Assembly: GCF_009176705.1 (NCBI RefSeq)
Contig: NZ_AP021846.1
Location: 1,892,001-1,956,000 of the forward strand
Reading direction: 5' to 3'
Length of the DNA: 64,000 nt
DNA from: Pseudoalteromonas sp. A25
GTDB taxonomy: Bacteria; Pseudomonadota; Gammaproteobacteria; Enterobacterales; Alteromonadaceae
Each line of letters begins with the position of its first letter. Positions within the stretch are counted from its first letter, which is position 1. Below the pieces are notes generated by a model that searched no databases, had not been told where the DNA came from, and saw only the letters and a list, made by a program, of their open reading frames with translations. Both the position numbers and the translations under genes were made by a program. This document shows, piece by piece, positions 45,050-54,013 of the stretch.

Positions 45050-45213
45050 GTCACTCTAATTTGCATGTTGGTGAGCCTTGTCTAAGTTGCTAGTTCTTTA
45101 AAATCATTTCAAATTCTAAGTTTAAGGCGTGAATGATAGGATTCGCAAGGAAGCGGTAAATCAGTTTGTCATATACCCCGTATTATCATTGTTTTTCACG
45201 CCGTGCGCGTTGC
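45050..45213 (+). pseudogene. Decayed 5' remnant of a REP-associated (Y1/HUH) transposase element
   Basis: This stretch aligns with 51505-51665, covering the leader and first ~27 codons of the intact transposase gene: AATTTGCATGTTGG, CAAATTCTAAGTT, CGCAAGGAAGCGG and TATTATCATTG are shared. The ATG (45133) opens M-I-G-F-A-R-K-R and then hits TAA where the intact gene has CAA (Q). Similarity ends near 45213, so most of the gene is gone. From there to 45428 I see only leader sequence for the next gene. Confidence 0.8.
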
Positions 45214-45428: not shown

Positions 45429-46298
45429 ATGGGAATTTCGGAACAAGCAGACGTAAAACAACTGAAAGCTGAGGGCGCTTATCCTGCAATCGGTATTTTA
45501 AACACAGAAGGCTTTTTATTTTATCACGTTGGTTGCTTATTTATATTGGATGATTCCGAGCAACCTACGATACGCTTGCACGCAGATGGGTTTGGCGATG
45601 ATTTTGACTTTAGTATTTGTGATATAGACGGCTCATTCATCTTACCACCATCTGATTTAGAAGGCTCTTGTGAGTTTAGTTTGCTCGCGGCTGATTTTGA
45701 GGAAGGCGGCATTGAACTGACTATTTATAAGAAAGGTGAAGTCGTCGGTGAATTTGCAGGTGTGTGTGAAGGGCTCGGAGAGGTAGGCATCCTTAAACAC
45801 AAAGGGAAACTCTCGATTCCTAAACCAAAAGAGCATGTGAATGTTTTTAAATTTGTAGGTGAAAGTGGCATTGACTCGATTAATTTTTACTATGGGGATG
45901 TGAACTCGATCACGCCGGGTGAGCCTTGGGGCGATGTTACCAGTGAAAGCCATAATGGCGGCAAAACGGTGGAAATAAAAGTTGATGCAGGTCGAAAAGC
46001 AGATAAAGCTAATGCAAAGTGGTTCAATGACACCGTTAATAGTGAAAGTAGTAAAATGTTTCATACACGCGGTGGAGACAACGTTCCGAGTGAACTCAAC
46101 TTCGCCATTCAAGGGATCCTAGAAATCAATCAAAAGCGCTTTAATGTATGTTTAGGGCAAGGTACCTCAGGCTCGTATAATAATTGGCACTTAGCATCTG
46201 AAGACATTAATTCTGCCCATCCACACAAAGGAGGAGACATGGGCAGCTATCATTTCACACAAAGCGGCTCAGATGAGTTTATCGTAAAGAAAAAATAG
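45429..46298 (+). CDS. Unrecognised 289-aa protein, beta-rich
   Basis: GCAAGGAGAACATA precedes the ATG, a strong ribosome site. The protein has no signal peptide or membrane segment, is acidic in the N-terminal half (D-D-F-D-F-S-I-C-D-I-D-G) and rich in Gly and alternating hydrophobics, suggesting a two-domain beta structure with a linker near residue 130. The C-terminal domain has F-N-V-C-L-G-Q-G-T-S-G-S-Y-N-N-W-H-L-A-S and ends in G-S-D-E-F-I-V-K-K-K. The Asn/Trp/Ser-rich stretch resembles sugar-binding or pore-forming folds, but I do not recognise the family. It stands alone, closed by a strong terminator. Confidence 0.72.
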   Translation: MGISEQADVKQLKAEGAYPAIGILNTEGFLFYHVGCLFILDDSEQPTIRLHADGFGDDFDFSICDIDGSFILPPSDLEGSCEFSLLAADFEEGGIELTIYKKGEVVGEFAGVCEGLGEVGILKHKGKLSIPKPKEHVNVFKFVGESGIDSINFYYGDVNSITPGEPWGDVTSESHNGGKTVEIKVDAGRKADKANAKWFNDTVNSESSKMFHTRGGDNVPSELNFAIQGILEINQKRFNVCLGQGTSGSYNNWHLASEDINSAHPHKGGDMGSYHFTQSGSDEFIVKKK

Positions 46299-46314
46299 TT
46301 ACGCATTAACACAA

Positions 46315-46341
46315 AAAACGGCGCTAATATCGCGCCGTTTT
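46315..46341 (+). terminator. Rho-independent terminator
   Basis: AAAACGGCGC / GCGCCGTTTT form a 10-bp stem with loop TAATATC, 16 bp after the stop of the 289-aa protein gene. Confidence 0.85.
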
Positions 46342-46535
46342 ATCGAAAAGGCGGCGCTAATCGTAATAGTTGATTTTGCTCAATGGTATATTCTCTTTCT
46401 TCTGTGGAAGCCAGTGTAGAAGACCTAAATCGACTGTACTTACTAAGATCGCATGTAGAAAAATCGCATAACGCTTGTTGCTGGTACGATGAGTTGTTAC
46501 TCTCAACGTCAATAACAAGAATTAAAGGCAAAATC

Positions 46536-46973
46536 ATGCAGGAATTTTTTGAGAAGTTTGCAATTAATACCAAAATTAATGTGGTATGGGGTGAAATGGA
46601 TGCGTTGGGACATGTGAATAACGTGTCGTACTTTCGTTACTTCGAAACCGCACGAATCGACTTTTTAAGCCAAACAGGGCTACTGGCTGTATTATCAGAA
46701 CCTACACATAGCCCCGTGTTACGTGATACATATGCGCAATACAAACGACCGGTTACTTTTCCAGATACCTTGTACATCGGCTCATATATTACCGACATCA
46801 AAGAAGACCGCTTCACGATGCGTTACGAGGCGTTTAGTGAGTCGCAACAGGCAGTATGCACAACAGGGTATGCAAATGTAGTGATGTTTAACATGAAAAC
46901 AGGGCAAAAATCGCCGATCCCTGAGCATATGCTGACCATTCTTAAGCAATACGAAATGGATATTAATCAGTAA
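46536..46973 (+). CDS. Acyl-CoA thioesterase, hotdog fold (4HBT/YbgC-like)
   Basis: I place the start at ATG 46536 (AAAGG 8 bp upstream), giving 145 residues; the longer frame from 46383 has no similarity to the family in its extra 51 codons. The hotdog signature is V-V-W-G-E-M-D-A-L-G-H-V-N-N-V-S-Y-F-R-Y-F-E, with the catalytic aspartate and H-V-N-N, followed by Q-Y-K-R-P-V-T-F-P-D-T-L. These enzymes hydrolyse acyl-CoA thioesters. Single gene with its own terminator. Confidence 0.87.
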   Translation: MQEFFEKFAINTKINVVWGEMDALGHVNNVSYFRYFETARIDFLSQTGLLAVLSEPTHSPVLRDTYAQYKRPVTFPDTLYIGSYITDIKEDRFTMRYEAFSESQQAVCTTGYANVVMFNMKTGQKSPIPEHMLTILKQYEMDINQ

Positions 46974-47023
46974 GGTTACGCTTACCCTTATGCGCTTTAA
47001 AGCTTTTACTATGCAATTATCAC

Positions 47024-47050
47024 AAAGGTTAACAAAATTCAGTTAACCTT
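47024..47050 (+). terminator. Rho-independent terminator after the thioesterase gene
   Basis: AAGGTTAAC / GTTAACCTT stem with loop AAAATTCA, followed by TTTTTAC on the plus strand. Confidence 0.8.
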
Positions 47051-47076
47051 TTTTACGTTGCACGCGTACTTTTATT

Positions 47077-47391
47077 TTAATGTACTGTAATTGGCAGATC
47101 ATTGACCACAAGTGATTGACCATTTTTTTGAGCGCGCAGAAAGCTTGAGATCAAAACATCATGAGACAATGCGTTAATATCGTTAACCTCTTCAACCATG
47201 CAAAACGTAATAGATTCCCAACCTAAATCTTTAATAAAGGTTTTAAGCTGATTGATGTTATCTTGATAATTTTCATCGGTTGTTAGCAGGCCGATAGAGT
47301 GTTTGTTGCCAGGTTTGTATTTTCCATGGTGTGTGGTTGCACATTTAGCGTACCCGCTTAACACATACACCGTATTTGCGTTGTGAGCCAT
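47077..47391 (-). CDS. Hypothetical protein (104 aa)
   Basis: A small soluble protein without signal or membrane segments. It begins M-A-H-N-A-N-T-V-Y-V-L-S-G-Y-A-K-C-A-T-T-H and contains I-G-L-L-T-T-D-E-N-Y, a central helix and a final S-L-V-V-N-D-L-P-I. I do not recognise the family. The position between two repeat-rich segments, and its opposite strand, suggest a solitary gene at the edge of the cassette region. Confidence 0.55.
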   Translation of the reverse strand: MAHNANTVYVLSGYAKCATTHHGKYKPGNKHSIGLLTTDENYQDNINQLKTFIKDLGWESITFCMVEEVNDINALSHDVLISSFLRAQKNGQSLVVNDLPITVH

Positions 47392-47473
47392 CTTTATGAC
47401 ACCCTTAAATTTGATTTTGGCAATTCTTATGCATTTTTTAAACCAAGCTTTAAGATGTGCTTACTACAATTGT

Positions 47474-47896
47474 TTAAGCATTGAAAATATTAAGAATAAT
47501 CATATCTTCTTTAGATATTCTCATCACAAAAGGTGTCAATTTTTTGTGGTGCTCTACTGAACCCCAACTCTGATAGTCATTCCAATTCAGCGTTACCGAG
47601 TGTATTGGAGTGGCGCATACTGTTAAAACGTTATTGAGCACATACCGATAAAAGAACTGCAACCCATTGCGGTCGAGCTTCACGGTACTCCAAGAATGGG
47701 AGGCAATGAGCTGTGCAAAGTACGCTTTAAGGTCCTGGGTGGTTAAGTTATCAGGGCAGCAATCAAAGAAAGCAGCGATACGACGCACGGCACGGCTATA
47801 GGCATCGATGGTAGCTGGACGCTTGCCTTGCAGGGTTAAATTGGTAAGATGTTGTTGGTAAAGGTGATTAAACCGAAGTTGTTCGGACGAGTTCAT
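47474..47896 (-). pseudogene. Truncated tyrosine recombinase, N-terminal SAM-like domain only
   Basis: 140 codons whose first ~88 form the core-binding domain of a tyrosine recombinase: R-P-A-T-I-D-A-Y-S-R-A-V-R-R-I-A, L-T-T-Q-D-L-K-A-Y-F, S-W-S-T-V-K-L-D-R-N-G-L-Q-F-F-Y-R-Y-V-L-N. After V-L-N the frame runs into unrelated sequence and the catalytic domain (R...HxxR...Y) is missing. The pattern is that of recombinases paired with IS91-like elements rather than IntI, so it is not the integron integrase. Confidence 0.7.
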
Positions 47897-47994
47897 GATA
47901 TTACTCCTAGAAAGGCCATCGAGATAGATGGCATCTAGAAAGTATTAAATATCAGTGGGAAGATGTGTGTTTAACTCTGCCGCGCAGCGGCTTC

Positions 47995-48093
47995 GTTCAA
48001 CAAGGCATTCAAACGGACAATTTACAGTTGGCTTTTGTTCGTGCCTCACATATTTTAGCCAACTATAAACTGCCGCTTAATGTGGCGTTGGTA
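47995..48093 (+). repeat. Integron attC site 1, split by an IS1111-type element
   Basis: R'' GTTCAAC (47995-48001) matches RYYYAAC exactly. The site continues AACAAGGCATTCAAACGGAC, has the internal arms ACAGTTGGC / GCCAACT, and ends TTAATGTGGCGTT where the IS begins. Restoring the far side gives GTTAGCA as R'. No intact cassette gene precedes it. Confidence 0.8.
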
Positions 48094-48397
48094 TGACTCC
48101 CACTGTCAAGTTAAACACACTGATCCTTGCCTAACTATAAGCCATAATTTCTTAACTCGAATTAGAGAGAGTTAACGCATAGGATGAAGCAAGTAATTTC
48201 GTCGGTTTTCATGCTGGTATTCGTTGGTTATTACTATTTCTAGTAACAGAGCAGACCTTACTTAACTCGACGTGGCACCTATCTTCAGTCTATGTTCGTG
48301 GTTCAATGCCGCGGTAACAACATTGCCATCCTAACGCCGTCGGTGGTTGTGCCACACCCGATGCTTGACCCAATGCATTAACTCTAATTCGTTCATA
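48090..48397 (-). ncRNA. Candidate guide RNA (seekRNA/bridge RNA) locus of the IS1111-type element
   Basis: In the IS110 family the long non-coding end of the IS encodes an RNA that picks the target; in the IS1111 group it lies downstream of the transposase gene, as here. The region is kept almost unchanged in the second copy (50781-51088). It contains CTAACGCC (48331-48338), the complement of GGCGTTAG across the attC insertion point, and GCATTAA (48375-48381), the complement of the TTAATGC of the adjacent attC arm. RNA boundaries and strand are not established. Confidence 0.5.
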
Positions 48398-49552
48398 TTA
48401 AGCAGGTACTCTTGATAATCGTAATTTAGGATTTATCGGTGAGAGTACAATCTGTTTAGCGATTGCCCAGATATAAGCAATCATTTCACGGGCAATGGCG
48501 GTGACAACCAAGTTGTAATGCTTGCCTTTATTAATGAGCTTTTTATAACGTTTACACAGTCTTAATTGTGCTTTCCATGCGATATCAACAATCTGTTTTG
48601 GTAAACCTTCTTGTCGTTTTTGTAACTCGGTCGATATGTTGGCTGCATGACGGTAACTATGAGCACCTTCGACCAATAAGCGCCTTGCACGACCATTGCC
48701 ACATCTAGTAATTGCGCCAATGTGCCTTTTACCACCGCTCGAGTGCTCACTTGGTACAAGGCCAAGGTAACTCATCAATTTACGCGGATGGTCGAAACGG
48801 GTTAAATCGCCAAGCTCAGCCACAACGCCAGCGGCCACGAGTAAGCGAACGCCGCGCATAGCCTGAATGGCTTTAACAACAGGGTAGTATCGCCATTGAC
48901 AAACATGGTGAGAGAGTTCATTGTCGAGTCGCTCTAATCGTGCAGTTCGCTCGTTTATAGTTTGAATAAACTCTTGTAAAACGATTTGTTGTGCGGGGTG
49001 TGGCAACACCAGTTCAGTGAGCCAACGTAAGTGTTTAAGAGACCAGTTTGCAGTGCCTGCGTAGTTAATATTGTTGCGAAGAAGCAGTGCTTTTAGCTGG
49101 TACTTCGCATCTTTTAAGTCTTTCATCGCGACTTCTCGAGCACGAGATAAATCACGAATAGCTTCATCTTCTGGCTCAGGCACATAAATAGGAGTTAAGT
49201 CTTCAGACTTAAGTAATTTAGCCAGTTTAAGTGCGTCACGCTTGTCAGTTTTTACACGCTCGCCAGGTTTTTTAGGAATAAGCGAAGGTGCAACAACGTA
49301 ACAACAATGCCCAAGAGAAGTGATTAAGCGATAAATCCAGTAACCACAAGGGCCAGCTTCATAAACGAAATGCAGAGTTGCGTTTGGGTATTTAGATTCA
49401 AATTGCCTGATAAGCTTTTTAATAGCGACTTTAGCAGAAGAAATGCGACCGAAATGAATGGGTTGTGCGCCGCGGTTATCTTCGATGTAGGCAACTTCAA
49501 TGAACTCTTTATGAGTATCTAAGCCAATGAAAAGTATGTTATGTTTAGTCAT
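48398..49552 (-). CDS. IS110-family (IS1111 group) transposase
   Basis: A 384-residue DEDD recombinase. The N-terminal RuvC-like domain has F-I-G-L-D-T-H-K-E-F (first Asp, D12), F-V-Y-E-A-G-P-C-G-Y-W-I and K-T-D-K-R-D-A-L-K-L-A-K. The C-terminal Transposase_20 domain has M-S-Y-L-G-L-V-P-S-E-H-S-S-G-G-K-R, carrying the catalytic serine. It is full length for the group and looks active. The last ~130 codons and the first ~15 are also present in the broken copy at 51-52.8 kb, nearly identical. Confidence 0.92.
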   Translation of the reverse strand: MTKHNILFIGLDTHKEFIEVAYIEDNRGAQPIHFGRISSAKVAIKKLIRQFESKYPNATLHFVYEAGPCGYWIYRLITSLGHCCYVVAPSLIPKKPGERVKTDKRDALKLAKLLKSEDLTPIYVPEPEDEAIRDLSRAREVAMKDLKDAKYQLKALLLRNNINYAGTANWSLKHLRWLTELVLPHPAQQIVLQEFIQTINERTARLERLDNELSHHVCQWRYYPVVKAIQAMRGVRLLVAAGVVAELGDLTRFDHPRKLMSYLGLVPSEHSSGGKRHIGAITRCGNGRARRLLVEGAHSYRHAANISTELQKRQEGLPKQIVDIAWKAQLRLCKRYKKLINKGKHYNLVVTAIAREMIAYIWAIAKQIVLSPINPKLRLSRVPA

Positions 49553-49679
49553 GCTAGCCTCTGCTATTTAGTTATTTGACAAACTAATTATGGCTCTGGC
49601 TTTAAGCTAACCCACGAAAATGCGGAGGCTAGCACCGTGTGGGAGTCATTATGTCTAGCATTACACGGAGTTTGGCACC

Positions 49680-50684
49680 TTGATTAGCTACATAGATGAA
49701 GCAGGAACTTTTGTTTCTAAAGGTGCACCTGAAAATTCATGGTGTACAGTCGCTTGTTATTCTCATCCTGAGTTTGAAAAAAGAAAACTGACAGAGTTGT
49801 TGAGGAAATTAAAATTAGACGAAGGGTTTTCTCAAGACAATGAAGTTAAGCTTAAAAATATCTCTGAAAATGGATACATAAATTTCCTTGATAAACTTAG
49901 CCAGTTAAATGGCACTTTGTTTTGTACCGCTACTGATTCTAGTTTCAATTCACTCGATAAAATCAACTCACACAAAGATGCTCATTTAGCATCTATTCTT
50001 CGTGGTCAAAGTGAAATGAAATATGATGGCGGAAAAGAAGCCATGAAGATCTTGCATAATCAGTTAAGCGGGCTACCAGAACAACTATATGTACAATTTC
50101 ACTGTCAAGCAGTCCTTCTTTCTTCATTTATTCAAAGAGGAATTGCATTTTATGTACAGAGGTACCCCAATTCACTCAAGAACTTTCGTTGGCGATATGA
50201 CGCCAAAGAGCTGTTGAAAATTACTGATTTTGAAGATTCTTTTCAAAAATTTGTTCCTACTCTTTTGCAGGCATACTCAATTGATAATCCAACAGCAGCA
50301 TTGGATTGGTGTGATTATTCGCCAATGAAAAAATTCATTGGCACTATACCTGATTACTTGGCTGAAAAAGTACCAGAGCTTGAAGGGAAAGAAGCCTTCG
50401 ATATTCAAAAAATAATTAGAGATGATATTCAGTTCATAGACTCTAAATCTAGTTCAGGAGTACAAACAGCTGATTTACTTGCATCGGGTTTAAGACGACT
50501 TCTAAGACTTGAGTTTCAGGATAATCAACTTGTAGCTGAACGCTTTGGAAAATTGTTACTGCAAGAAAAAGGTAATAAACCACCTATTTCACTAGTTGCA
50601 TTTGATGGTGAATCTGAAATAGATGGAGATTTAGCGGTAATCATTAAAACCTTGATACGTAACTGTAAACGGATTCTAAAGTAA
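49680..50684 (+). CDS. DUF3800 protein carried as an integron cassette
   Basis: A 334-residue protein with TTG start; GGAG lies 9 bp upstream and the family's opening Y-I-D-E-A-G falls at residues 4-9, so the start seems native. The C-terminal F-I-D-S-K-S-S-S-G-V-Q-T-A-D-L-L-A-S-G is the second DUF3800 hallmark; together they suggest an RNase H-like fold. DUF3800 genes are frequent in mobile and defence loci, but the activity is unproven. The stop codon touches attC 2, and the restored R' of attC 1 lies just before the gene: a complete cassette. Confidence 0.85.
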   Translation: MISYIDEAGTFVSKGAPENSWCTVACYSHPEFEKRKLTELLRKLKLDEGFSQDNEVKLKNISENGYINFLDKLSQLNGTLFCTATDSSFNSLDKINSHKDAHLASILRGQSEMKYDGGKEAMKILHNQLSGLPEQLYVQFHCQAVLLSSFIQRGIAFYVQRYPNSLKNFRWRYDAKELLKITDFEDSFQKFVPTLLQAYSIDNPTAALDWCDYSPMKKFIGTIPDYLAEKVPELEGKEAFDIQKIIRDDIQFIDSKSSSGVQTADLLASGLRRLLRLEFQDNQLVAERFGKLLLQEKGNKPPISLVAFDGESEIDGDLAVIIKTLIRNCKRILK

Positions 50685-50783
50685 TGCTAACAAGTCATTT
50701 AAAAGGACAAAAAACAGTTGGTTTTTGCTCCTTCGTTGCTTATTTTAACCAACTATTTTTAGCCTCTTAATGCGGGCGTTGGT
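50685..50783 (+). repeat. Integron attC site 2, split by the second IS1111-type copy
   Basis: It starts at the stop codon of the DUF3800 gene with TGCTAACAAG (R'' degenerate), has the arms ACAGTTGGTT / AACCAACT and CTCCTTCG between, and ends TTAATGCGGGCGTT where the IS begins. Restoring the far side gives GTTATGC as R'. The arms differ from site 1 in a compensatory way. Confidence 0.82.
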
Positions 50784-51480
50784 ATGACTCCCACTGTCAA
50801 GTTAAACACACTGAGCCTTGCCTAACTATAAGCCATAATTTCTTAACTCGAATTAGAGAGAGTTAACGCATAGGATGAAGCAAGTAATTTCGTCGGTTTT
50901 CATGCTGGTATTCGTTGGTTATTACTATTTCTAGTAACAGAGCAGACCTTACTTAGCTCGACGTGGCACCTATCTTCAGTCTATGTTCGTGGTTCAATGT
51001 CGCGGTAACAACATTGCCATCCTAACGCCGTCGGTGGTTGTGCCACACCCGATGCTTGACCCAATGCATTAACTCTAATTCGTTCATATTAAGCAGGTAC
51101 TCTTGATAATCGTAATTTATGATTTATCGGTGAGAGTACAATCTGTTTAGCGATTGCCCAGATATAAGCAATCATTTCACGGGCAATGGCGGTGACAACC
51201 AAGTTGTAATGCTTGCCTTTATTAATGAGCTTTTTATAACGTTTACACAGTCTTAATTGTGCTTTCCATGCGATATCAACAATCTGTTTTGGTAAACCTT
51301 CTTGTCGTTTTTGTAACTCGGTCGATATGTTGGCTGCATGACGGTAACTATGAGCACCTTCGACCAATAAGCGCCTTGCACGACCATTGCCACATTTAGT
51401 AATTGCGCCAATGTGCCTTTTACCACCGCTCGAGTGCTCACTTGGTACAAGGCCAAGGTAACTCATCAATTTACGCGGAT

Positions 51481-52792
51481 AAAAATTATCGTGGACATCC
51501 ACCTCAATTTGCATGTTGGGGTTGTTTGTCTAAGCTTTTAGTTCTTCAAATCATCTCAAATTCTAAGTTCAAGGAGTGAACGATGGGGTTGGCAAGGAAG
51601 CGGCAAATCAGTTTGTCGGATACTCGATATTATCATTGTGTTTCGCGCTGTGTTCGCCGTGCATTTTTGTGCGGTGAAGATAAATTTACGGGTAAGTCGT
51701 ATGAGCATCGCCGAGGGTGGGTAGAAGAACGATTGTTGTTTTTAGCTAAGGTATTTTGTATTGATGTGTGTGCTTATGCGGTGATGAGTAATCATACCCA
51801 TGTGGTGCTGTATGTTGATGATAAAAAAGCCCGAAGACTCAGTGACAAAGCGGTACTCATACGTTGGCACAAGCTGTTTAAAGGCTCGATTCTTGGTCAT
51901 AAATATCTACACAATGAGCGTCTGGACGAAGGTCAAAGATTCTTTTTAGACAAAGAGATAAAAGAATATCGACAACGCCTGTGCAGCATTAGCTGGTTTA
52001 TGCGGGTGTTGAATGAAGGCATAGCACGAGAAGCGAATAAAGAAGATGGGTGTACTGGCAGATTCTGGGAAGGGCGCTTTAAAAGTCAAGCTTTACTGGA
52101 TGAGGCCGCATTAATGGCTTGTATGGCGTATGTTGATTTAAACCCAATCAGAGCAAAAATGGCAAAGACACCAGAAGAGTCAGCCCACACCAGTATTCAA
52201 ATACGCTGTGCACAAGCCAAAGAGGGCAAACAACCAAAACAACTTGCACGCTTTGTAGGTAGTCCACGAAAACACATGCCCAAAGGCCTGCCATTTGAAC
52301 TTAAAAGCTATCTGGAATTAGTCGAACTGACAGGCAAATGTATTCGAACCGACAAACGAGGCCACATCGACAGCAATCAAGCCCCTATCCTTGAGCGATT
52401 GAATATCAAGGCAGACAACTGGCTAAAACTCACGACTCAGTTTGAAAAGGTGTTTCATGGTGCGGTAGGCAAAGAGCATGCGCTGGATTTGTATTGCCAG
52501 CGACAACAACATAAACGAAGACACAGCATCTCAAATTGCACAATGTTATTAAGCTGACACAAACCTGATTTCATTCATTTACCTTTATGCTTTCAAAATG
52601 GCAGAGATACGTGTGCTTAAAGGGTGAGAAATAGAGTAAAAAGCGGGTAATTTCAGCAATCATTTAACCATAGTAGGCATGATTTTGATAACATCTAGCG
52701 ACAAAGTCAGTTGCTTTGTCATTGAGCGCTTGTTGAAGGTTCTTTCTTATGTCTTTTTAAAGTGGATGTCCCATGAGTCGTGAGTCGAGTCA
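51481..52792 (+). mobile_element. Y1/HUH (REP-associated tyrosine transposase type) element
   Basis: The insert carries one transposase gene and is bordered by related motifs: the hairpin GTGGACATCCAC (51491-51502) on the left and GTGGATGTCCCA (52762-52773) on the right. No target duplication is visible, as expected for HUH enzymes. The tail from 52558 has no ORF and includes a GACAAAGTCAGTTGCTTTGTC-like hairpin near 52708. A decayed relative of its left part lies at 45.1 kb. Confidence 0.7.
51583..52557 (+). CDS. REP-associated tyrosine transposase (Y1/HUH, IS200-like)
   Basis: A 324-residue transposase with CAAGGAG ahead of the ATG. The N-terminal Y1 domain opens I-S-L-S-D-T-R-Y-Y-H-C-V-S-R-C-V-R-R-A-F, has the metal-binding H71-T-H73 in M-S-N-H-T-H-V-V-L and the nucleophile Y183 in Y-V-D-L-N-P-I-R-A. 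It is longer than true IS200 enzymes and has the G-R-F-W-E-G-R-F-K-S-Q segment of the REP-associated group. Such enzymes cut single-stranded DNA at hairpins next to short guide tetranucleotides. All catalytic residues are present. Confidence 0.9.
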   Translation: MGLARKRQISLSDTRYYHCVSRCVRRAFLCGEDKFTGKSYEHRRGWVEERLLFLAKVFCIDVCAYAVMSNHTHVVLYVDDKKARRLSDKAVLIRWHKLFKGSILGHKYLHNERLDEGQRFFLDKEIKEYRQRLCSISWFMRVLNEGIAREANKEDGCTGRFWEGRFKSQALLDEAALMACMAYVDLNPIRAKMAKTPEESAHTSIQIRCAQAKEGKQPKQLARFVGSPRKHMPKGLPFELKSYLELVELTGKCIRTDKRGHIDSNQAPILERLNIKADNWLKLTTQFEKVFHGAVGKEHALDLYCQRQQHKRRHSISNCTMLLS

Positions 52793-52954
52793 TTATGAGT
52801 ATCTAAGCCAATGAAAAGTATGTTATGTTTAGTCATGCTAGCCTCTGCTATTTAGTTATTTAACAAACTAATTATGGCTCTGGCTTTAAGCTAACCCACG
52901 AAAATGCGGAGGCTAGCACCGTGTGGGAGTCATTATGTCTATGCCTAGAAAGGT

Positions 52955-53224
52955 TTGGAGTTTAATATCTACTTATTGTGGCTACTCGCGATACATTTAA
53001 CCCTAAGCTTTCTTGTTGGTATTAAAATCTACAAGAATTTAATGTTATCCCGTTCAGAAAAATTAAAGCTTTTTACTTTGGCATTTGTGGTACCTATTAT
53101 TGGGTCTATCTTAAGTTTTTCTATAAGCCGAGGTAATGAATTTGGGTCACCTGCTAGAAGCAGTGATTTTTGTGGTAACCCTTCAAATCCTTTCGATGGC
53201 GGCTCAGATTCTGGCGGAGATTAG
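52955..53224 (+). CDS. Small membrane protein (89 aa), integron cassette
   Basis: A product with two hydrophobic helices (about 4-25 and 39-58) and a Ser/Gly/Asp-rich tail with F-C-G-N-P-S-N-P-F-D-G-G-S-D-S-G-G-D. The start is uncertain: the TTG at 52955 overlaps its only possible ribosome site AGAAAGG, and the IS ends 15 bp upstream, so the native promoter region may have been altered. The gene is followed directly by attC 3. I recognise no family. Confidence 0.6.
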   Translation: MEFNIYLLWLLAIHLTLSFLVGIKIYKNLMLSRSEKLKLFTLAFVVPIIGSILSFSISRGNEFGSPARSSDFCGNPSNPFDGGSDSGGD

Positions 53225-53228
53225 CTGC

Positions 53229-53331
53229 GTATAACAAGTTAATGAAACCGTGGACGTAAAACAGTAGGCTTGCGCTCCTTCGTCGCTTATTTTTGCCTAC
53301 TATTTTTCGCCGTTTATTAAGGCGTCTAGGC
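53229..53331 (+). repeat. Integron attC site 3 (uninterrupted)
   Basis: It begins GTATAACAAG 5 bp after the stop of the 89-aa gene, has the arms ACAGTAGGC / GCCTACT with CTCCTTCG between them, and ends TTAAGGCGTCTAGGC. R' is imperfect (GTCTAGG for GTTRRRY). The arms co-vary with sites 1 and 2 (TTGGC, TTGGTT, TAGGC). Confidence 0.75.
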
Positions 53332-53359
53332 GAATGCCTTATATTTAACAAAGGATGCT

Positions 53360-53890
53360 ATGAAAATAATAATGAGTTTAACTTTTGCAAGCCTAATTTC
53401 TTGGCAAGCTAATGCAAATAACGAGGCTGTAGGAGCTTTTGAGCACTTGTTGCCACAATATATTAAGTGGGCACATAAAGTAGATAAAGAGGGAATCAAG
53501 ATAGGTATACCTTTAGATAAAAAGGGACTTAATTTAGCCAGTGAATTAGGGATTAAGTCTCCTGAAAAAGTCAAAATCGTTTACGTTGATAGAGTCCCGT
53601 ACCCTTATGAAAATGAAGAATTAAAGAAAATGGGGTTGTCGTTAGGTTTTATCGGCGAAAATATTATTAATAATGCCCAAGTTTTTGGCTACTCAATATA
53701 CGTTAGAAAGGGATATGAACTTGATACCCCAAACTTAGCACACGAACTCGTTCATGTATTACAAATCGAAAGATCTAACTTGGACAAAATTATTACTCAG
53801 CACTTTTCTGATTTGGCAAAATACGGATATTCTAATGCTCCTTTAGAAGTTGAAGCATTTAAAGCAAACAAGAAGTACGGTGGCAGTTAA
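53360..53890 (+). CDS. Secreted HELVH-motif protein, integron cassette
   Basis: A 176-residue protein with AAAGGA 6 bp before the ATG and a signal peptide (M-S-L-T-F-A-S-L-I-S-W-Q-A-N-A). Near the C-terminus it has N-L-A-H-E-L-V-H-V-L-Q, a zinc-peptidase-like HExxH in the DUF4157-type context, with glutamates in P-L-E-V-E-A-F as a possible third ligand. The rest shows no known family. It may be a small periplasmic metalloprotease or a fold that lost activity. The stop is followed 4 bp later by GCCTAAC. Confidence 0.72.
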   Translation: MKIIMSLTFASLISWQANANNEAVGAFEHLLPQYIKWAHKVDKEGIKIGIPLDKKGLNLASELGIKSPEKVKIVYVDRVPYPYENEELKKMGLSLGFIGENIINNAQVFGYSIYVRKGYELDTPNLAHELVHVLQIERSNLDKIITQHFSDLAKYGYSNAPLEVEAFKANKKYGGS

Positions 53891-53893
53891 TTC

Positions 53894-54013
53894 GCCTAAC
53901 ACATATGAACCGTCTCCGGTCAATAAGCATAACGATACAAATTAGCAGCTTTTAAGCAGCTAATTTGTATCGGCAATTCTTAAATCTATTCAGCTTCGCT
54001 ATGTCGGTTAGCC
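53894..54013 (+). repeat. attC-like region 4 (atypical)
   Basis: It begins GCCTAAC (exact R'') just after the HELVH gene and reaches GGTTAGCC near 54006-54013, which could be R'. The inside lacks the ACAGTTGGC-type arms of the other sites and instead contains a long palindrome, so assignment is tentative. Confidence 0.45.
53933..53972. repeat. Long perfect palindrome
   Basis: CGATACAAATTAGC pairs with GCTAATTTGTATCG over 14 bp; inside, GCTT and AAGC pair again across TT. There is no T-run after it on either strand, so an attC arm or an unrelated cruciform is as likely as a terminator. Confidence 0.6.

Follow-up and report, generated by a model that had tools for sequence, protein, structure and literature searches.

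Comparison of related elements points to a two-armed RNA that very probably guides an IS1111-type element of Pseudoalteromonas to attC sites

The window analysed here, a stretch of 64,000 nucleotides from Pseudoalteromonas sp. A25, carries two copies of an insertion sequence (IS) of the IS1111 type, each sitting at the end of an attC site (Table 1). On the minus strand, copy 1 consists of the left end AGACATA followed by ATGACTCCCAC, the transposase gene (tnp), a non-coding region of 308 bp, and the right end GTGGGAGTCAT followed by ACC. The sub-terminal inverted repeats (sTIR) are thus ATGACTCCCAC/GTGGGAGTCAT, with a left extension of 7 bp and a right extension of 3 bp, the latter being a feature of the IS1111 family. 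The transposase matches PF01548, PF02371 and NF033542, which cover IS110-type N- and C-terminal domains, and it carries the GL-P----S(T)G motif as GLVPSEHSSG (GLTPSEHSSG in the A1 consensus). The non-coding region lies 3’ of tnp, as expected for this family, and the preliminary description of this DNA had its limits exactly right. Copy 2 keeps both ends and the guide region, while its tnp is disrupted by a foreign segment (about 51481-52792). We consider it highly likely that the RNA of the downstream region holds two target-reading arms which set the choice of attC, so that a changed guide brings a changed target. The whole case is built on sequence comparison of related elements, namely of arm positions, covariation between arms and sites, covariation within stems, and site structure.

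Table 1. Coordinates of the two IS copies, their attC sites and the predicted RNA elements within the window (a slash marks the end of the element)
Feature	Position	Strand	Remarks
IS copy 1	48090..49656	-	1567 bp, IS1111-type; in attC R' box, GGCGTT-IS-AGC; from ends and flanks
tnp of IS copy 1	48398..49552	-	384 aa; DEDD_Tnp_IS110 and Transposase_20
Non-coding region downstream of tnp, guide RNA predicted	48090..48397	-	RNA sense is the minus strand
attC at interrupted cassette boundary	47999..48089	+	ends at insertion point GGCGTT; family D3
Second attC	50686..50780	+	ends at its own insertion point
IS copy 2	50781..52940	-	tail as in copy 1; both ends and guide region kept
Predicted target guide arm 1, RNA GGCGUUAG	48331..48338	-	pairs with CTAACGCC, top strand in IS orientation; is the octamer
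Predicted target guide arm 2, RNA CAUAGAC	48288..48294	-	same sense as left flank and left end; pairs with bottom strand
Target-loop closing stem, 5’ strand, RNA GUGGCAC	48349..48355	-	fold and alignment
Target-loop closing stem, 3’ strand, RNA GUGCCAC	48272..48278	-	fold and alignment
Outer stem, 5’ strand, RNA GAGUUAAUGCA	48374..48384	-	contains the heptamer (48375-48381), not a guide
Outer stem, 3’ strand, RNA UGCGUUAACUC	48169..48179	-	downstream partner of GAGUUAAUGCA; fold and covariation
Candidate donor-reading segment, RNA AUACCAG	48214..48220	-	resembles right end and target start (CATACC/A); weaker support than target arms
TTGACA in right end	48104..48109	-	-35-like; sequence
CATAAT in left end	49648..49653	-	-10-like part of putative junction promoter

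In both copies the insertion point lies between T and AACGCC, which is the R' end of attC, and the five insertions listed for the source genome all share this position and a single orientation. Rejoining the flanks gives empty sites that read GGCGTT/AGC for copy 1 and GGCGTT/ATG for copy 2, which restores an R' box resembling that of intact sites. Because no true pair of occupied and empty sites for copies 1 and 2 was found among 108 genomes of the genus, the lack of a target duplication is something that we infer from the flanks. Among the matches listed for the rejoined-flank queries in these genomes none was full-length, the own genome giving two halves and the others the attC half; for the copy 1 site this half was found in 101 of the 108 genomes (own included), and many of the listed matches stop at the insertion point. 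The IS tail occurs seven times in the source genome, once partially. Two of these tails, at 1743430-1747510, are near an integron integrase gene that scores above the family cut-off (C1:1740911-1741849).

The preliminary description had called attention to two short segments of the tail, the octamer CTAACGCC and, 36 nt further on, the heptamer GCATTAA, and had proposed that both read the attC site as parts of one guide RNA. Both are present at this spacing in the two copies (at 51022-51029 and 51066-51072 in copy 2). The complementarity to the sites is complete for one copy in each case: the octamer matches the empty site of copy 1 at 8/8 positions and that of copy 2 at 7/8, and the heptamer is complementary to TTAATGC in the attC adjoining copy 2, the attC of copy 1 having TTAATGT instead. 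Among 5000 dinucleotide shuffles of the 306-nt tail, the octamer was found in 21 in the noted orientation and in 35 in either orientation, while 358 held some 8-mer of the 16-nt attC end on either strand. By its letters alone the octamer is therefore weak evidence, and it is the comparison with relatives that lifts it above chance. The last of these counts also lends something to a different explanation, in which recognition of the attC hairpin or of its R' box is the work of the transposase protein and the octamer is a coincidence, as attC sites can indeed fold.

Relatives were collected by searching with the transposase, which matched in 35 of 295 related genomes at 1e-80 and in 13 of 369 genomes of the class at 1e-60 (own genome included in both), in the best 60 of 1896 plasmid records, and at two loci of viral contigs; the best 80 of at least 539 confirmed matches came from a search of genome contigs with an alignment as the query, and a second query (L064) matched in 22 of 394 genomes of the order at 1e-100. 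The C-terminus of the transposase could be read in 222 elements, of which 177 remained after removal of duplicates; for 137 of these the ends could be called, and they conform to AG.....-ATG-sTIR ... sTIR-CAT-3 bp. The left extension starts with AG in 136 of 137, and the right flank starts with A in 131 of the 132 elements that have at least six bases of it, both being features that the caller favoured. In 71 of these 132 the right flank is AACGCC. The same holds for 55 of the 73 elements with transposases at least 60% identical (short flanks being counted among the rest), and for all 15 members of a second attC group that is about 47% identical to the window transposase. In a tree of 105 rows, elements at AACGCC are interspersed with relatives at other targets, the site label requiring 12 changes, some of which merely reflect degenerate attC sites.

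Attachment sites free of the IS are consistent with this picture of the target. We counted 39 attC-like sites without an IS in the fetched loci (38 of them listed), three of which by eye are IS variants. In 34 of the remaining 36, GCGTT is followed by A, foremost in the triplets AGG (10), ATA (8) and ATG (8), which are the reverse complements of CCT, TAT and CAT, the commonest left flanks of insertions. Six of the listed boxes read AGCGTT instead of GGCGTT.

The strongest support for the guide comes from natural reprogramming. Whether guides and sites change together was asked of 125 elements without any anchor, by taking the longest exact match in the tail to the complement of the element’s own 10-base site. 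For the 60 elements at sites other than AACGCC the matches sum to 396, against 308.8 (sd 7.1) when sites are permuted, a sum that none of 20,000 permutations reached. Their mean match is 6.6 bases to the own site and 5.1 to the sites of others, with 5.3 for the own sense strand, and 19 of the 60 match their own site by at least 8 bases. Conversely, GGCGTTA is present in 64 of 65 tails of elements at AACGCC sites, versus 7 of 60 at other sites. Individual pairs of guide and site include GGAAGTTAT with AACTTCC (L155), GGGTGTTAT with AACACCC (L175), and a match of 10/10 bases in L190; among close relatives, the loop GGCGTTAG accompanies AACGCC sites in 50 of 65 rows, GGAAGTTAT AACTTC and GGTGTTAT AACACC. 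In one relative (L148) the arm 1 loop is split by about 50 extra bases directly after GGGCGTT.

There is a second arm, CAUAGAC, which the preliminary description had missed. As it has the same sense as the left flank and the left end, it is complementary to the bottom strand. The loop bases that precede AGA (CAT in the window element) match the last bases of the left flank above chance: over 51 pairs of element and site with transposases less than 60% identical the score is 92 against 43.4 (sd 5.0), and over all 83 pairs it is 153 against 85.3 (sd 6.6), in both cases with 0/20,000 permutations reaching it. Inside the close group this test has little power, because arm 2 hardly varies there. 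The top-strand arm lies 5’ of the bottom-strand arm, which is the arm order of IS1111 seekRNAs.

A further comparison is found within a single Pseudoalteromonas genome (G008), where five full-length copies of 1573 nt differ at 7 positions, a sixth copy having a shortened transposase match. Four copies have G as the guide base, which goes with a C in the target, in the loop GGCGTTAG; these are at AACGCC (L049, L245 and L247) and AACACT (L246), their location in attC being judged by eye and from neighbouring attC matches. Two near-identical copies have A, which goes with T, in the loop GGCATTAG, and these are at AATGCT (L248) and AATGTC (L249). Several of these loci have two labels, L248 and L249 being the same places as L051 and L050, and L244 the place of L049. 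The copies with A split ordinary genes, one for a UvrD/REP helicase and one with weak, below-cut-off matches to OmpP1/FadL, and at the three variable positions of tnp they have the same letters as L049, the copy at an AACGCC site. We infer that the change of the guide preceded the moves of these copies. These sequences make it likely that an attC specialist came to enter ordinary genes through the change of a single guide base. If so, drift of the guide would offer IS1111 elements a natural way out of integrons and towards new target lineages, a view that the wider set of relatives also suggests.

Recognition of attC by the protein alone is hard to reconcile with these observations, since the tails of many relatives at sites other than attC contain a sequence complementary to the element’s own site, and since the guide base in G008 changes together with the move to AATG sites in protein genes, while the variable positions of the transposase stay as in a copy at an AACGCC site. 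We therefore regard it as very unlikely. Alternatively, a piece of attC could have been taken up into the tail at an earlier target, in which case the match would be a record of past insertions and guide nothing; the IS copies do sit in attC and the match does have the sequence of attC. However, across relatives this one loop carries complements to many sites that are unrelated to each other, the second arm matches the opposite strand, and capture would not put both arms in one conserved loop, which makes this explanation extremely doubtful. The comparison of relatives instead speaks for the octamer as the part of an IS1111-type RNA that reads the target, and very probably it is RNA that directs the element to attC.

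The fold of the tail places the two segments of the preliminary description in different roles. Across 30 relatives the outer stem GAGUUAAUGCA/UGCGUUAACUC, which holds the heptamer as RNA UUAAUGC, pairs to 99.7%, and 10 of its 11 pairs show double changes, whereas shifted partners reach 27-39%. Because this stem covaries so strongly, UUAAUGC is a stem strand and not a guide, and it was rejected as such. Burial of both segments in conserved stems, which had been named as the outcome that would speak against the proposal, was thus found for the heptamer and not for the octamer. A two-part guide of octamer and heptamer, reading the same attC strand over a longer stretch, is most improbable: both segments are in both tails and co-occur in 1 of 5000 shuffles, but the heptamer is taken up by the stem and disagrees with the attC of copy 1 itself, and the published IS1111 layout has one arm per strand (PMC11187229). 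The 241-nt fold has a z of -2.54, with 4 of 200 shuffles as stable, and in its centroid both target arms and the donor segment lie in single-stranded stretches and UUAAUGC is paired. An Rfam search of 46000-54000 found no guide-RNA family there and gave one weak, unrelated match (E 0.34).

We must however take into account a number of observations that weigh against a guide RNA with two target arms. Seventeen of the 60 elements outside AACGCC sites match their own site by 4-5 bases only, which is about the average with the sites of others (among them L147, L078, L096, L097, L099, L085 and L105), and some of the longer matches fall outside the loop (L120, L150, L214 and L215). The G008 copies with the A guide score just 6 and 5 bases in this exact-match test. 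L147 is clearly mismatched, having the loop GGTGTTAT but the site AACTTC. Furthermore, the anchor of arm 2 was unreadable in 28 elements, and several anchors were misread and nonetheless retained (e.g. those of L190, L096 and L075). The sampling also has its losses, as 40 of the 177 elements were dropped when their ends were not called and short flanks and duplicates reduced the 137 to the 125 of the arm 1 test, and the end-calling score is biased towards left ends that start with AG and right flanks that start with A. Since relatives are linked by phylogeny, the permutation figures are not strict probabilities. As for structure, a 107-nt fold by itself is no stabler than shuffles (z -0.18), the minimum-energy fold of the single sequence pairs the last base of the octamer, and RNAalifold pairs arm 1 bases at columns 98-100 with columns 137-139 on the far side of the loop, without compensatory change.

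The right flank of L147, AACTTCC, is the site that would be expected for the guide GGAAGTTAT of its close relative L155, its own guide being GGGTGTTAT.

How would such an RNA act? In the mechanism that we favour, an internal loop of the RNA presents two short arms that read the target. GGCGUUAG would pair with the top strand of CTAACGCC, a sequence made up of the R' box of attC and the next two bases, and CAUA(GAC) would pair with the bottom strand on the left side. Loaded with this RNA, the transposase would then place the IS at the boundary of T and AACGCC, always in the same orientation and apparently without duplicating the target. The preference for attC would be written in the RNA, and an altered guide would lead to an altered target. 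By analogy with published relatives, this RNA would be expressed, would associate with the transposase and take part in the reaction, and a circle would be formed.

A second hairpin of the RNA carries AUAYCAG, which is like the right end. It probably reads the right end of the element itself, by which the RNA could join both ends into a circle. A 6-mer composed of AT, the right extension and A is present in the tail of 68 of the 97 elements that have the usual ATC or ACC, and of 7 of the 9 whose right end is unusual. Two 6-mers of the unusual class are also seen elsewhere, one in 17 of 102 and the other in 17 of 105 of the remaining elements. As some matching 6-mers are common in other elements, the donor segment is only probable. 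Once joined, the ends would bring together TTGACA and CATAAT as a -35/-10-like pair 17 bp apart, and a similar pair is found in 65 of 73 close relatives. Such a promoter-like junction could drive both tnp and the RNA.

Guidance to attC by an RNA, which the preliminary description had offered as a hypothesis for this element and which our comparison supports, is already published for other IS1111 elements. ISKpn4 and ISPst6 target attC, and each has a seekRNA that co-purifies with the transposase and matches the target once on the top strand and once on the bottom strand, while ISPa25 has an attC target and a predicted seekRNA of the same kind (Siddiquee et al. 2024, PMC11187229). Because of this precedent the mechanism is not new, and the Pseudoalteromonas lineage is a new and well-supported case of it. 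Like ISKpn4 and ISPst6, it has its guide RNA region downstream of tnp, with two short arms of which the top-strand match lies 5’ of the bottom-strand match; unlike these two, for which the RNA was co-purified and sequenced, it is known here from sequence and likened by description. The same paper gives the layout of the IS1111 seekRNA as one arm per strand with the top-strand arm first, a left extension of 7 bp, and a junction promoter for ISEc11, and it also describes ISEc21, in which the two target arms are in reverse order. The layout, ends, arm order and site of the window element fit the IS1111 family and its seekRNAs, the length of the transposase alone being outside the published range (384 aa versus 330-350 aa), which is a described range and not a strict criterion. 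ISPa21, another IS1111-group element that, as ISPa25, is attC-linked and resembles ours by description, has been reported within cassettes of blaGES-5 integrons, where disruption of attC was thought possible (PMC11616780).

A bridge RNA has been predicted in 93.0% of IS1111 elements, mostly at the right end (Durrant et al. 2024, PMC11208160), unlike in the IS110 branch, where the RNA is mostly upstream of tnp (PMC11187229). Like these bridge RNAs, the RNA proposed here would be a single molecule with target-binding and probably donor-binding nucleotides, the donor segment being merely suggested. The nearest named relative among the best 60 of 1896 plasmid records is of the ISSso6 type, with about 50% transposase identity and an alike second hairpin in the tail; it differs in site and loop, and its own arm 1 match is poor (5 bases, L078). 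Neither ISKpn4 nor ISPst6 nor any other named attC element appeared among the listed plasmid matches by protein and tail DNA. Solved structures gave distant matches only, the best being IS621 (E 4.5e-5). A literature search by titles, whose coverage excluded most subscription journals, found no description of the Pseudoalteromonas lineage.

What the lineage adds is a large collection of guides reprogrammed in nature, among them one redirected by a single base inside one genome; such a collection helps to find the pairs that decide target choice. The many natural pairs of guide and site indicate that in this marine lineage a short RNA loop very probably sets the specificity for attC. Moreover, a relative of the lineage adjoins integron resistance cassettes on a Klebsiella plasmid. 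This element (L082, NZ_CP095763.1), whose transposase is 79% identical to that of the window, is located between arr-3 and qacEdelta1 on a Klebsiella pneumoniae IncC plasmid, a context that by its neighbours is a class 1 integron, and TCT in its arm 2 agrees with the left flank of this insertion.

Several further features surround the two copies in the window. The foreign segment in copy 2 measures 1.3 kb and replaces about 0.7 kb of tnp; it encodes a 324-aa protein with a weak, below-cut-off likeness to REP-associated tyrosine transposases, and a start related to this segment is found at 45058-45205. Between and beyond the IS copies lie two apparent gene cassettes (49657-50780 and 52941-53325), one with a DUF3800 protein (49680-50684) and the other with a small frame of 89 aa. 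A third attC-like site, at about 53213-53325, has a weak R' box (GGCGTC) and holds no IS. Near the first attC, at 47474-47896 on the minus strand, a 140-aa frame carries the SAM-like N-terminal domain of phage integrases (PF13495), the catalytic part not being seen, and is possibly a broken recombinase gene.
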